A stretch of DNA of 64,000 nt. Origin: Gemmatimonadota bacterium. Lineage in GTDB: Bacteria > Gemmatimonadota > Gemmatimonadetes > Gemmatimonadales > Gemmatimonadaceae. Within the stretch, counting starts at the first letter, position 1; the number at the start of each line of letters is the position of its first letter. A program made the translations under genes and the position numbers. The stretch spans positions 1-64,000 of the forward strand of contig JAQBQB010000029.1 in assembly GCA_028287235.1 (NCBI GenBank), read 5' to 3'. Under the pieces are notes generated by a model. The model was not told the DNA's origin. It saw nothing but the letters and a program-made list of their open reading frames with translations, and ran no database searches. Positions 58,345-64,000 of this stretch are shown one piece after another.

Positions 58345-59889
58345 CTACCGTTTTGCCGGTCGAATCTGGCCGATCGCCGTCAGCAGCGCGCGCGCCTTGT
58401 TCTGATGCTCGAGAAACTCGCGCTCCGGCACGGAATCGTAGACCACACCCGCCGCCGACTGTATCGACGCGACGCCGTTGGCGATCACGCAGGTGCGGAT
58501 CGTGATGGCGAGGTCCATGCGCCTCACGCCCGCGCTGATGTAGCCCACCGCACCACCGTACGGGCCGCGGCGCTCGGGCTCCATTTCGTCGATGATCTCC
58601 ATGGCGCGGACCTTCGGCGCGCCGGTGAGCGTACCGGCCGGGAAGCCGGCGCGAAACGCGTCCATCGCCGTGAGGTCGTCGCGCAGCTCGCCGTCGACCT
58701 GGCTCACGAGGTGAAGCACGTGCGAGTAGCGCTCCACGACCATCAACTCGCTCACGCGCACGGAGCCGTACTTGGCGACGCGGCCCACGTCGTTGCGTCC
58801 GAGGTCGACGAGCATGAGGTGCTCCGCGCGCTCCTTCTCGTCGGCGATGAGCTCGGCGGTCATCGCCGCGTCGTCGGCTTCGGTGCGGCCGCGGCGACGC
58901 GTGCCGGCGATCGGACGCAACGTCACCGTGCCTTGCGCACTCACGCGCACGAGAAGCTCGGGCGAGCTCCCGACGATCTCGACGCCGTCGAGGACGAGAT
59001 GATACATGTAGGGCGACGGGTTGATCACCCGCAGGGCGCGATACAGGTCGGTCGACGAGAAATCGAACGGCACGTCGATCCGGCGGGCGATCTGCACCTG
59101 AAACGCGTCCCCGGCAATGATGTATTCGCGCACGCGCTCCACGTCGACGAGAAACTTCGCTTTGTCGTAGCGCGACTCGCCTTCGGCGGGTGCGGCCTTG
59201 GTATCGAGCTCCAGGGGCGCGAGCACGGACGGCCCGCGCAAGCGCGCGACGGTCGCGTCGATCGTCCGCAGGGCGGCGTCGTAGGCGGTTTGGAGCTCCG
59301 CATCGGATGCCGAGTCGCTCACGCGTGCCGTGGCCACGACGCGCGCCTGCGAGCGCAGGTTGTCGAAGATGACGAGCGCGTCGGTGAAGACGAACAGCGC
59401 GTCGGGCACATCGACGCCGCGGGCCGGCGGGGCGGGGAGCCGCTCGATGATGCGGGCCACGTCGTAGCCAAAGTAGCCGACGGCCCCGCTCCAGAATTCG
59501 CCGATCTCCGGGACTTCAACGGGCTCGCAGTCGCGCAGCAATGCTTCGAGGTCGACGAGGGGATCGTCGGGGCGCCGGTCGTTGTGCCAGCCGCGGTCGG
59601 CCGTCCAGTCCTGCACCGTGCCGTCCACGAGCTTCCAGGCGGCACGCGGCGCGGTTCCCATGAACGTATACCGCGCCCACGTCTCGCCTCCGGCAGGCGC
59701 GGACTCGAGCAGGAAGGCGAACGGACCGTTTCGCAGCTTGGCGAACGCGGCCACAGGAGTTTCGGCATCGAGCAGGACGTCGCGCCACACGGGAACAAGG
59801 CGTGGGGCGTGGACCGTGGGGCGTGGACCGTGTGAGGCGGGCCGTGGGGCATGGCTCCGCGCGCGGGCGCGGAAATCTTCAACACTCAT
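58345..59889 (-). CDS. trpE: Anthranilate synthase component I
   Basis: 514 residues from ATG 59889. The tryptophan feedback site is FAFLLESAPAG with LLES at 60-63. The chorismate site has GDAFQVQIARRIDVPF, INPSPYMYHLVLDGVEIVGS, SPELLVRV, RPIAGTRRRGRTEADD, MLVDLGRNDVGRVA and FPAGTLTGAPKVRAMEIIDE. It makes anthranilate from chorismate with a TrpG partner not seen in this window. LLES favours TrpE over PabB. Residues about 12-31 (SHAPRPASHGPRPTVHAPR) are encoded by repeat family C and are unlike TrpE. The huge open frame to 61845 is antisense to the next gene and not coding. Confidence 0.92.
   Translation of the reverse strand: MSVEDFRARARSHAPRPASHGPRPTVHAPRLVPVWRDVLLDAETPVAAFAKLRNGPFAFLLESAPAGGETWARYTFMGTAPRAAWKLVDGTVQDWTADRGWHNDRRPDDPLVDLEALLRDCEPVEVPEIGEFWSGAVGYFGYDVARIIERLPAPPARGVDVPDALFVFTDALVIFDNLRSQARVVATARVSDSASDAELQTAYDAALRTIDATVARLRGPSVLAPLELDTKAAPAEGESRYDKAKFLVDVERVREYIIAGDAFQVQIARRIDVPFDFSSTDLYRALRVINPSPYMYHLVLDGVEIVGSSPELLVRVSAQGTVTLRPIAGTRRRGRTEADDAAMTAELIADEKERAEHLMLVDLGRNDVGRVAKYGSVRVSELMVVERYSHVLHLVSQVDGELRDDLTAMDAFRAGFPAGTLTGAPKVRAMEIIDEMEPERRGPYGGAVGYISAGVRRMDLAITIRTCVIANGVASIQSAAGVVYDSVPEREFLEHQNKARALLTAIGQIRPAKR
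59795..59850. repeat. GTGGGGCGTGGACC tandem repeat (family C) inside the trpE 5' end
   Basis: On the plus strand CGTGGGGCGTGGAC is repeated in tandem, then GCCGTGGGGCATGG. On the minus strand it encodes His-Ala-Pro-Arg/His-Gly-Pro-Arg repeats near the TrpE N-terminus. The 16-mer at 59795-59810 (minus strand) is identical to 34652-34667 in the menG-mqnL spacer. Confidence 0.75.
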
Positions 59890-59934
59890 CGAGCGGGTTG
59901 CTCCGGTCGGGACAGCCCGCGATATTCGCCAATC

Positions 59935-62028
59935 ATGCGTCGATTCCTCGCGGCGGGCCGCGCCGCGTGCTGGTTGTTCGTTTTCGCGATTTCTGCGCGC
60001 GGGGCCGGCGCACAAAAGTGGAACGACTCGCTCAGCCTCGATCTCGTCAATCGGGCCACCGCGCGCCGAGTACGACAGCTCGCCGACACGGAGCTCACCG
60101 ACTACCAAGCCACCGCGCACGGGTACGTCACCTTTCTGGCGCAGCTTGGCGAGGGACTCCGCACGCCGCCCAAGATCATCAAGGCGGACGAGCTCCAGCT
60201 GGAAGTCTACTGGCACGCTCCCAACCTGAGCAAGCAGCGAATCGTGGGGCGGCGCGACACGCTCCTGTTGCCGACTGACATCGCGTATCACGCCGATCAC
60301 CTGGGGATCGTCCAGAACAATTTTCCCAGCGTGATTCGGATCGGCGACGGCGACGAAGTGCGCGACGTGCCGCATCCGCTGTCGCCCGCCGGGTTGCTCG
60401 ACTACGACTTCGCGCTCACCGACAGCTTCGCGATCGGCTCCGGTCCGCAGCGCATTCGCGTACACGAGATCAAGGTGCGTCCCAAGGACGACCGGCAGCC
60501 GCGCGTGGTGGGCGCGGTCTACGTCGACGCGTCGGGAGGGGAGGTGGTGCGCATGAATCTGAGCTTCACGCGCGCCGCCTTCGTCGACCAGGCGCTCGAG
60601 GAGCTGTCGATCATCCTGGAGAACCGCCTCGTGGGCGGGAAGTTCTGGCTTCCCAATCGCCAGCTGATCGAGATCAAGCGGTCGGGCACGTGGATGGATT
60701 TTCCCGCGCGCGGCATCATTCGCGGCCGGTGGGAGATCGGCGACTACCGCTTCAATCTCAAGTTGCCGATGACGGTGTACACCGGTCCCGAGATCGTCCA
60801 AGTCTCGCCGCAGCAGCTCAAGGCATATCCGTGGACCGGACGCGTTCTGGATTCGCTTCCCCCCGACGTGCGTGCCGTCACCGAGGAGGACGTGAAGCGG
60901 GTGCAGGACGAAGCGCGTGCATTGGTGCGGGCGCAGGCGTTGGCGCGCGCGCAACACGCGACGCTGTCGGCGCGAAACGTGTCGGATCTGGTGCACGTGA
61001 ACCGGGTGGAAGGCCTCGCGCTCGGCAGCGGCGTGTCGAAGGTGCTCGGCTCCGGTGTGACCGGGACGGCGCGCGCGCGGTACGGCATCGACGACCACGA
61101 CGTGCTCGGAGCGGCATCGGTCGCCTGGCTGCATCCGTCGGGGTTCGGCGTACGGCTCTTCGGGCTGCGAGACTTCCGCGACGCCGGTGACGTGCAGGAG
61201 CGATCGTCGGCGTTGAACAGCCTCGCGGCGCAGGAGTTCGGGAGCGATTACACCGATCCGTATCTCGTGCGCGGCGGCGGTGCGGGGCTCGACTTTCCGA
61301 CGTTCCTCTCGTTCCACTGGCAGCTCGACGGGTCGGTGGAGCGGCAGGATTCGCTGGAGGTGCACGCGCATCCGGTGGTCCGGAAGTTCGCTCCCACGGT
61401 TCCGGCCATGGCAAGGCGGCTCTTCCGGTTGTCGCTCGGTGCGGATCGGCCGCCCTCGCTCTGGCTGTTCGGCACCGAGCTCGCGATGCGCGGGGAGCTT
61501 CGCGGCACGTGGGATCTGCGGCCGACGATCGTTCCGGGCGGCACGAGCACGGCGCGGACCTTCCGCGGTGCGGTGAGCGCGGAGCTCGAGCGCCCGTACG
61601 GGTCGAATCGGCTGGTGTCGCGCACCACGGCGGCCGGCCTCTCGACGCTTGGCTTCGAGCCGAGGCAGGAGCTGGTCTACCTCGGCGGTCCGATCAGCGC
61701 GCCGGGCTATGATTATCATTCTCTCATAGCGCGCGCCGCGGTGAGCCAGCATCTGGAGTGGCAGTTCCCGGTACCGTTCCCCGCGTTCTCGCTCGGACGC
61801 TTCGGGCGGGTGCCGGCCACGGCGTCGCTCGCGCCGTTCGTGCACGCGGCGTTCGTCTCACGGCCGACGAGCGGCGCGGGCGCGAGCGACGGCGTCTATC
61901 CGGCGGTCGGAACCGGATTCCTCACCCCCTTCAATCTCCTGCGCTTCGACGTGGCGCGGGGAGTCGGTCGCGGCGGGCGGTGGACGTTTGCCGTGGACGT
62001 GTCGCGGGAGTTCTGGAGCATCTTTTGA
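59935..62028 (+). CDS. Large outer-membrane beta-barrel protein with N-terminal periplasmic domain
   Basis: 697 residues from ATG 59935 (MRRFLAAGRAACWLFVFAIS), a signal peptide cleaved near AGA-QK. Residues about 40-330 are a periplasmic domain (YQATAHGYVTFLAQLGEGLR; LENRLVGGKFWLPNRQLIEI) reminiscent of DUF5686-type proteins. The rest is strand-rich with a BamA/TamA-like YLGGPISAPGYDYHSL turn, and it ends VSREFWSIF with the C-terminal Phe that marks outer-membrane barrels. Substrate or secretion role unknown. It is divergent from trpE across 45 bp. No known enzyme motif. Confidence 0.75.
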   Translation: MRRFLAAGRAACWLFVFAISARGAGAQKWNDSLSLDLVNRATARRVRQLADTELTDYQATAHGYVTFLAQLGEGLRTPPKIIKADELQLEVYWHAPNLSKQRIVGRRDTLLLPTDIAYHADHLGIVQNNFPSVIRIGDGDEVRDVPHPLSPAGLLDYDFALTDSFAIGSGPQRIRVHEIKVRPKDDRQPRVVGAVYVDASGGEVVRMNLSFTRAAFVDQALEELSIILENRLVGGKFWLPNRQLIEIKRSGTWMDFPARGIIRGRWEIGDYRFNLKLPMTVYTGPEIVQVSPQQLKAYPWTGRVLDSLPPDVRAVTEEDVKRVQDEARALVRAQALARAQHATLSARNVSDLVHVNRVEGLALGSGVSKVLGSGVTGTARARYGIDDHDVLGAASVAWLHPSGFGVRLFGLRDFRDAGDVQERSSALNSLAAQEFGSDYTDPYLVRGGGAGLDFPTFLSFHWQLDGSVERQDSLEVHAHPVVRKFAPTVPAMARRLFRLSLGADRPPSLWLFGTELAMRGELRGTWDLRPTIVPGGTSTARTFRGAVSAELERPYGSNRLVSRTTAAGLSTLGFEPRQELVYLGGPISAPGYDYHSLIARAAVSQHLEWQFPVPFPAFSLGRFGRVPATASLAPFVHAAFVSRPTSGAGASDGVYPAVGTGFLTPFNLLRFDVARGVGRGGRWTFAVDVSREFWSIF

Positions 62029-62119: not shown

Positions 62120-64000
62120 ATGGCATCCCGTGCCCCACTTCCAGTTCCAATTTCCGTCGCCGTCGACGCGCTCGCGCGGCGATACCGGCTCCCCGTTGCC
62201 GACCTCTCGCGCGCCACGGCGCAGGCCGTCGCCCTGGTGCCCGAACGCTGGGCGCGACGATTCCACATCGTGCCGCTTTCTGCGACCGAGCAAGAGCTCT
62301 TGATCGCGACGGCTGATCCGCTCGATGTGGACTGCGAGCGAACGCTCGGCTTCGCGACGGGCCGTCACGTCAAGCTGGCGATCGCCGACAGCGAGGAGAT
62401 CGCGCGGCGGATCGAAGAAGTCTATCGCGGCGACACCGGCCCGCGCGAGCACGACGCGCTGCTCGAGGTCCAGCATCTCGACGACGACGAAGAGGGCGCG
62501 CCGCCGTCGCCCCTCGAGGAAACCGGCTCGTCGATCACGATGCTCGTCGACGAGCTGCTCGCGGCGGGGATCGCACTGCGGGCGAGCGACATTCACATCG
62601 AGCCGGAGGAGCAGGGGATCGCGGTTCGGCACCGAATCGATGGCATGCTCGCGTTGGCCCGCACGCTTCCCCGCGCCGTGGGGCCGGCGCTCGTGTCGCG
62701 GATCAAGATCATCTCGGGCCTCGACATCGCCGACCGGCTGCGGCCACAGGACGGGCGCGCACGCGTCGCGATCAACGGCGTCGCTGTCGATCTTCGCGTC
62801 TCGACGCTGCCCGCCTCGCATGGAGAGAAGGTCGTCGTGCGCGTGCTCGATGGGCGTTCGGCCGTGCACACGCTCGACGGAATGGGATTCCACGCCGACG
62901 AGCTCGATCGGCTGGGGCGGCTCCTCGGGTCGCGCGAAGGGCTCATCCTCGTGACCGGGCCGACCGGATCCGGCAAGACGACGACGTTGTATGCCGCGCT
63001 GCGGCAGCTCAAAGAGCGCGGCGTCAACATCGTGACGGTCGAAGATCCGATCGAATATCGGCTGCCGGGAATCGTTCAGGTGCAGGTGAACGAGAAGGCG
63101 GGGCTGACATTCGCAACCGCGCTGCGGTCGATCATGCGCCAGGATCCCGACGTCGTGCTGATCGGCGAGATCCGAGACCGCGAGACCGCGGAGATCGCGA
63201 TCCAGGCGTCGCTCACGGGCCATCTCGTGCTGTCGACGCTGCACACGAACGACGCGCCAAGCGCGGTTACGCGGCTGATCGACATCGGCGTGGCGAGCTA
63301 CAAGATCGCGACGGCCGTGAAGGGCGTGCTGGCGCAGCGACTCGTGCGCCGCGCATGCACTGCGTGTGCGGCGTACACGGCGATCCGCGGAGCGGAGCAT
63401 GGCGAGTGCGCGGAGCGTGTGGACTGCGCGGAGTGCGGCGGCACGGGGTTTCACGGACGGCTCGCGCTTGTCGAGGTGCTGGTCGGCTCACCGGAGTTCG
63501 AGCGTCGCGTCGCGGCAGGCGAGTCGACGGAGCGGATCGCCGAAGCGGCGCGCGCGAACGGCATGCGATCGCTTTGGAAGTCGGGCATGGCGCACGCCGC
63601 GGCGGGCCGCACGTCGGTGGAGGAGGTGCTCCGCGTCGCGACACCGGACGACGACACGCGTGTGTCGGAGGGTGCGCCCGCCCCGGCTGCCATCACGTCG
63701 CTCGACGGCGCCGCGTTTCGTCTGCGCGACGATCTCGACGACACCCTGGCGCGCGCGTCGCGGCGGCGCCGTAACTTTCAGGACATGGCTCAGGTTCAGG
63801 TAGGCACCGTGGACGTCCTCGTCATTCGCCCGCTCCCCGACGGGTGGCGTGTTCTCGCGCTCCAACGGGCGATGGAAACACGCTGCCCCGGCTCCTGGGA
63901 GACCGTGCACGGCCACATCGACCCGGGCGAGGAGCCGGAGGACGCCGCGGTCCGGGAGACGCGCGAGGAAGCCGGCCTGACGGTCGAGCGGCTGTACAAC
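62120..64000 (+). CDS. GspE/PilB-type secretion ATPase fused in frame to a Nudix domain (C-terminus cut by window end)
   Basis: 627 codons without a stop from ATG 62120 to the last base. Residues about 10-110 are an MshEN-like N-terminal domain. The ATPase has the Walker A GPTGSGKTTTLYAAL, the Asp box VTVEDPIEYRLPG, the Walker B LIGEIRDRETAEIA and the His box TGHLVLSTLHTND. CTAC and CAEC form the zinc tetracysteine. GspE homology ends at SVEEVLRVA. After a linker of about 50 acidic residues the same frame reads VDVLVIRPLPDGWRVLALQR and the Nudix box GHIDPGEEPEDAAVRETREE. So either a genuine fusion or a lost stop. Such ATPases drive type IV pilus or type II secretion. Confidence 0.85.
   Translation, partial: MASRAPLPVPISVAVDALARRYRLPVADLSRATAQAVALVPERWARRFHIVPLSATEQELLIATADPLDVDCERTLGFATGRHVKLAIADSEEIARRIEEVYRGDTGPREHDALLEVQHLDDDEEGAPPSPLEETGSSITMLVDELLAAGIALRASDIHIEPEEQGIAVRHRIDGMLALARTLPRAVGPALVSRIKIISGLDIADRLRPQDGRARVAINGVAVDLRVSTLPASHGEKVVVRVLDGRSAVHTLDGMGFHADELDRLGRLLGSREGLILVTGPTGSGKTTTLYAALRQLKERGVNIVTVEDPIEYRLPGIVQVQVNEKAGLTFATALRSIMRQDPDVVLIGEIRDRETAEIAIQASLTGHLVLSTLHTNDAPSAVTRLIDIGVASYKIATAVKGVLAQRLVRRACTACAAYTAIRGAEHGECAERVDCAECGGTGFHGRLALVEVLVGSPEFERRVAAGESTERIAEAARANGMRSLWKSGMAHAAAGRTSVEEVLRVATPDDDTRVSEGAPAPAAITSLDGAAFRLRDDLDDTLARASRRRRNFQDMAQVQVGTVDVLVIRPLPDGWRVLALQRAMETRCPGSWETVHGHIDPGEEPEDAAVRETREEAGLTVERLYN

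Follow-up and report, generated by a model that had tools for sequence, protein, structure and literature searches.

Traffic ATPases of the GspE/PilB/MshE type combine an N-terminal MshEN domain (PF05157) with a T2SSE ATPase domain (PF00437). The MshEN ATPases bind a nucleotide signal, and MshEN also occurs joined to a receiver domain, REC (PMC5013675). The c-di-GMP-binding form of MshEN is defined by two RLGxx...LxxQ motifs (PMC5013675). How second messengers and partner proteins control PilB has been reviewed in a text where the word Nudix is absent (PMC11656802). In the literature searched, which left out most subscription journals, no GspE-Nudix protein is described.

Here we study such a protein, encoded at the end of a 64,000-nucleotide stretch of a Gemmatimonadota genome, hereafter the window (positions 1-64000 of contig C31; the draft genome has 5.73 Mb in 31 contigs). 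The protein shares the domain order, the Walker A and B motifs, the Asp and His boxes and the tetracysteine motif with the known traffic ATPases, but differs from them by a C-terminal linker and Nudix domain, by NCBIfam scores below the cut-offs and by the lack of a T2SSF gene on its contig. Another close system is that of the GspE-REC proteins of Gemmatimonadota, a case of the MshEN-REC arrangement (PMC5013675). Their ATPase part is directly orthologous and their gene neighbourhood is the same, but in the window protein a Nudix domain replaces REC within the same chain. The ATPase family is thus a known one, and the domain architecture is new. Our main reading, to which we assign a probability of about 0.85, is that this is a genuine and long-established fusion, in which REC was lost and the ATPase became joined to the Nudix hydrolase of its operon neighbour, and that the tethered hydrolase is most likely active.

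The joined frame and its domains

The reading frame is open from the ATG at 62120 on the forward strand through the window end at 64000, and no stop codon separates the GspE-type ATPase from the Nudix domain. Beyond the window it stays open to a TAA at contig positions 64247-64249, giving a product of 709 amino acids. The original prediction had a single stop-free frame from a Walker A box near 62970 to a Nudix box near 63910. Both the ORF and the reading of the contig agree with this, and the two motifs lie at 62957-62983 and 63911-63979. The observation of a stop-free GspE-Nudix frame is thus confirmed.

The MshEN domain covers residues 22-106 (62183-62437; Pfam E 8.8e-18) and the T2SSE domain residues 137-505 (62528-63634; E 8.3e-123). 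In the latter, the Walker A motif GPTGSGKTT (residues 280-288), the Asp box EDP (residues 308-310, 63041-63049) and the residues G349, E350, I351, R352 and D353 of the Walker B region, which ends in GEIRD (residues 346-353, 63155-63178), are identical in all of the 34 aligned fusion proteins. The fusions also have a His box, of the form TGHxVxxTLHT, while the tetracysteine (zinc) motif CxxC...CxxC (residues 413-439, 63356-63436) is missing from some fused relatives. Both domains and all four boxes (Walker A, Asp, Walker B and His) of a GspE/PilB-type ATPase are thus found in the window protein. The NCBIfam equivalog scores are below the cut-offs for GspE (507.5 against 630.25 bits) and PilB (483.8 against 675.65 bits), so we assign the ATPase to the superfamily and not to GspE or PilB proper. 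By analogy with other GspE proteins it would be hexameric. Its N-terminus is shorter than in the relatives, and no RLGxx...LxxQ motif was noticed when residues 1-106 were read by eye. T2SSF has 12 matches in the genome, none of them on contig C31. In contrast, the other five high-scoring T2SSE ATPases are all on contigs with T2SSF genes, and by gene content the window ATPase is therefore classed as an orphan GspE-type motor.

The linker (residues 507-555, 63638-63784) is predicted to be mostly disordered, with AlphaFold pLDDT below 50 at residues 512-539 and 544-555. It had been described as acidic and about 50 residues long; the length and the acidic first half hold, but its end is basic. The Nudix part follows at residues 556-709 (63785-64000 in the window, ending at contig position 64246), and the Pfam NUDIX match (PF00293, E 5.8e-19) covers residues 565-678. 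It begins with an in-frame ATG that corresponds to the ancestral start codon of a free Nudix gene. This ATG, expected at 63784, exists but is located at 63785-63787, with no Shine-Dalgarno-like match 3-12 nucleotides upstream. The Nudix box GX5EX7REX2EEXGL (GHIDPGEEPEDAAVRETREEAGL, residues 598-620) is intact as predicted, except for a Thr at the first U position of GX5EX7REUXEEXGU.

The Nudix fold is also predicted with confidence by AlphaFold, with pLDDT mostly above 90 at residues 558-690. For the whole protein the pTM is 0.49, with low confidence in the linker and no fixed orientation of the domains. The solved structures nearest to the Nudix domain, all of them of low similarity, include Ap4A hydrolase and MutT-like enzymes. 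It shares the intact box, the confidently predicted domain and a weak similarity to several enzymes with the range from MutT and Ap4A hydrolase to dihydroneopterin triphosphate diphosphatase, but differs from these in being fused to an ATPase and in scoring below every NCBIfam cut-off; the best equivalog score for a named substrate is 46.9 bits, against a cut-off of 245. Another Nudix match in the same genome (G000:C9:91601-91990, L001) lies inside an open frame of 648 codons.

Upstream of the ATPase, at 59851-62028 on the forward strand, is the gene of a predicted exported protein with a weak DUF5686 match, below the Pfam cut-off; it has the same position in most relatives. The order of the genes is common to many relatives (58345-62028 in the window; 8310-15998 in L008): a PabB/TrpE-like gene, the DUF5686-like exported protein, the ATPase and the Nudix gene, followed on the opposite strand by Lon, ClpX and ClpP. 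The PabB, Lon, ClpX and ClpP names were assigned by reading the sequences, not by search.

Fused and unfused relatives

The locus was compared across the genus, family and order, then in 179 genomes of the family, and 60 more loci were fetched. A one-frame GspE-Nudix gene without REC is found at 38 loci, the window and 37 others, all in Gemmatimonadaceae and spread over nine genera (g1, g2, g5, g7, g10, g11, g14, g20 and g30). Two of these have caveats, as G185 contains a run of N and G195 a stop inside the ATPase. Those fused relatives that carry names are metagenome-assembled genomes. The prediction of a genuine GspE-Nudix protein, and the search for the same fusion at orthologous loci that was to check it, are both borne out. 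Judged from these genomes, the fusion occurs in many soil and water Gemmatimonadaceae. Among 395 genomes of the phylum none was detected outside this family at E 1e-180, a cut-off that diverged fusions could escape.

Of the six genomes in the window's own genus, five have an intact fusion frame, and in the sixth (G003) the locus is rearranged. There, a full-length ATPase copy stops before a broken Nudix remnant and is followed by two further 3' partial copies (L072, 4441-6102, 8274-8993 and 12320-13507). The partial copies both begin near codon 311, with 14-21% DNA divergence, and the last one is a truncated ATPase that is still fused to an intact Nudix. Copies two and three have about 270 bp of upstream flank in common. 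A different duplication is seen in G018, where pieces of the ATPase and Nudix genes (L083, 1544-2076 and 3874-5009) recur with 97.5% identity some 5 kb downstream from the complete copies; between the two lies a DDE_3 transposase that is broken into two ORFs.

The unfused state, an ATPase with a C-terminal REC, is seen in families of the order besides Gemmatimonadaceae and, within Gemmatimonadaceae, in many genera. In the only unfused orthologue put through Pfam (G030), Response_reg matches with E 3.9e-30, while the window protein has no Pfam match to it. At the REC-bearing loci a separate Nudix gene usually lies just downstream, and in some 2 to 7 kb away. The two genes overlap by four bases in G007, G035, G050 and G054. 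In three of these (G035, G050 and G054; L093, L103 and L107) the Nudix gene seems to begin within the stop of gspE-REC in a CTGA overlap, possibly with a CTG start. The expectation that GspE ends just after EEVLRV does not hold for this orthologous group, as its unfused members carry a C-terminal REC and the Nudix domain took its place. There are also a few genomes where an intact REC is missing yet the Nudix gene is separate: G019, G020, G070, G091, G130 and most of genus g14.

A stop-free linker is in itself weak evidence for a coding fusion, because 47% of nucleotide shuffles of the window linker stay open, and on average 44% for the fused linkers. It is its conservation across relatives that lifts the open linker above chance, as judged by sequence comparison. 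Among the fused relatives the linker is 19 to 62 residues long, and the tree requires no fewer than 19 changes of its length, each by whole codons. The Nudix gene of unfused relatives, in contrast, occurs in every one of the three phases relative to gspE. Further, summed pN/pS (19 pairs, several of which share a genome) amounts to 0.16 in GspE and 0.23 in Nudix but 0.64 in the linker, pointing to purifying selection on both domains and a loose linker. The Nudix box pattern is intact in all 38 fused loci and in all unfused relatives checked. Taken together, the alignments show the fusion and its conservation, the intact motifs, the selection on both domains and the ancestral order.

At the old Nudix start, an ATG or GTG is kept in 29 of the 38 fused loci and the start codon is absent in nine, which include all four loci of genus g2, and G186, where the ATG has become ACG. 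A candidate start within a few codons of the old one is present in 36 of the 38. Ribosome sites are weak at both fused and unfused Nudix starts. As the old start is kept in most fused loci, a free Nudix could still be made by internal initiation.

Origin and number of the fusions

A single origin of all fusions was rejected on the tree of the ATPase part (AU p 5e-6), because the fused G067 nests within genus g14, whose other members keep separate genes. The tree, together with a probable degenerate receiver in genus g14, instead implies that fusion happened independently several times, three times or more on the best tree; this number rests on forks whose supports are 80 to 91. Clade A (g5, g7 and g30) forms one group with support 97. 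One loss of the intact REC may have preceded all fusions (support 87).

How the events are read depends on genus g14, in which the ATPase carries a tail of about 140 residues (L256:3087-3521, L258:2663-3088 and other loci). AlphaFold models it as a (beta-alpha)5 fold with a mean pLDDT of 80.6, and the PDB structures that it matches best are, with few exceptions, receivers. None of these passes E 0.001 and the profile comparison with REC is not significant, so the model makes the tail only a probable degenerate receiver. If it is one, the fusions of clade A, of G067 and of the g1/g20/g2 group are separate events, as a REC once deleted would be hard to regain. G014 and G015 are perhaps also separate fusions.

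In the linker of the window protein, the segment FRLRDDL (63716-63736) is the counterpart of the FELLDDL and FELVDD segments just before REC in unfused orthologues. By this comparison FRLRDDL (FxLxDDL) is likely a scar of the REC deletion, and it fits a deletion that extended up to the Nudix start rather than a mutated stop codon. On this reading the ancestral unit had two genes: one for an orphan ATPase of the GspE/PilB type that ended in REC, and, close behind or overlapping it, a separate Nudix gene. REC would have been deleted or have decayed, and the ATPase frame would have joined the Nudix gene in frame several times within Gemmatimonadaceae. The product would be a single polypeptide of an MshEN-like domain, the T2SSE ATPase, a flexible linker of 19 to 62 residues and the Nudix domain, with the old REC site serving as a permissive place for an extra domain.

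Function of the tethered Nudix

The fusion is most likely an ATPase that bears a catalytically active Nudix hydrolase tethered to its C-terminus, and both activities probably persist. A search at E 1e-25 gives a single match to this Nudix subfamily per fused genome, and the activity must therefore come from the fused form or from a product of internal initiation. Some genera retain the Nudix but not the ATPase, and some genomes the ATPase but not this Nudix, so the functional tie between them is loose. In the large genus g22 (L273-L275) the Nudix is a free gene and no close ATPase orthologue was found at a cut-off of E 1e-125.

An assembly error or a recent loss of the GspE stop in this genome, raised in the original prediction, has next to nothing in its favour beyond the draft state of a genome in 31 contigs. 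The same architecture in independent assemblies of nine genera speaks against such a private accident, and the explanation was rejected on this conservation. A functional free Nudix made from the internal ATG at 63785, with the long frame read through only incidentally, is improbable. It agrees with the 29 loci that keep the old start, but nine have lost it, the window start has no Shine-Dalgarno-like site, and a ribosome that finishes GspE meets no stop, so that full translation of GspE always yields the fusion. We infer that the free Nudix is neither made nor needed. A different matter is why the fusion exists. In a neutral account, which is compatible with the main reading, random deletions after the decay of REC joined the frames in some lineages, and the domains work independently with no benefit from being joined. 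This could well be so, at odds slightly below even. REC loss was followed by fusion in some lineages and by separate genes in others, as a chance frame would give; the linker evolves loosely (pN/pS 0.64); and in G003 a truncated ATPase C-terminus stays fused to the Nudix, while the full-length copy is without it. Against neutrality, the linker was kept in frame through its at least 19 length changes. On the sequence evidence, this indicates that the joined product is made and that its Nudix part is needed, not that joining is of benefit.

Another account makes the Nudix domain the successor of REC in the regulation of the motor: it would bind or hydrolyse a nucleotide signal and thereby alter ATPase activity or docking. 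The motor would then repeatedly have given up phosphorylation control through REC in exchange for a covalently bound Nudix, and its activity would be set by nucleotide metabolism, perhaps of an alarmone or dinucleotide. Both the replacement and this wider scenario seem unlikely to us, though less so than a free Nudix. The domain does occupy the ancestral site of a phosphorylation-controlled domain, the fusion arose repeatedly and was kept over long divergence, and MshEN ATPases with a bound nucleotide signal or a joined REC are known (PMC5013675). However, the Nudix already existed as a separate downstream gene when the ATPase still had REC; it persists by itself where there is no ATPase; several lineages lost REC and did not become fused (G019, G020, G070, G091 and G130); and the linker is poorly conserved and, by prediction, disordered, and the domains have no fixed orientation in the model. 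That the Nudix controls the motor directly is possible but unsupported, because the two proteins persist apart and REC loss gave a fusion in some lineages only. More probably the tethered hydrolase serves metabolism and does not control the motor.

The fusion indicates that a traffic ATPase can lose its signalling domain and take up a neighbour from the operon in its place. Further, the separate, the probable degenerate-receiver and the fused states are all found within one bacterial family, which offers natural pairs for asking if the motor is affected by the fused enzyme at all.
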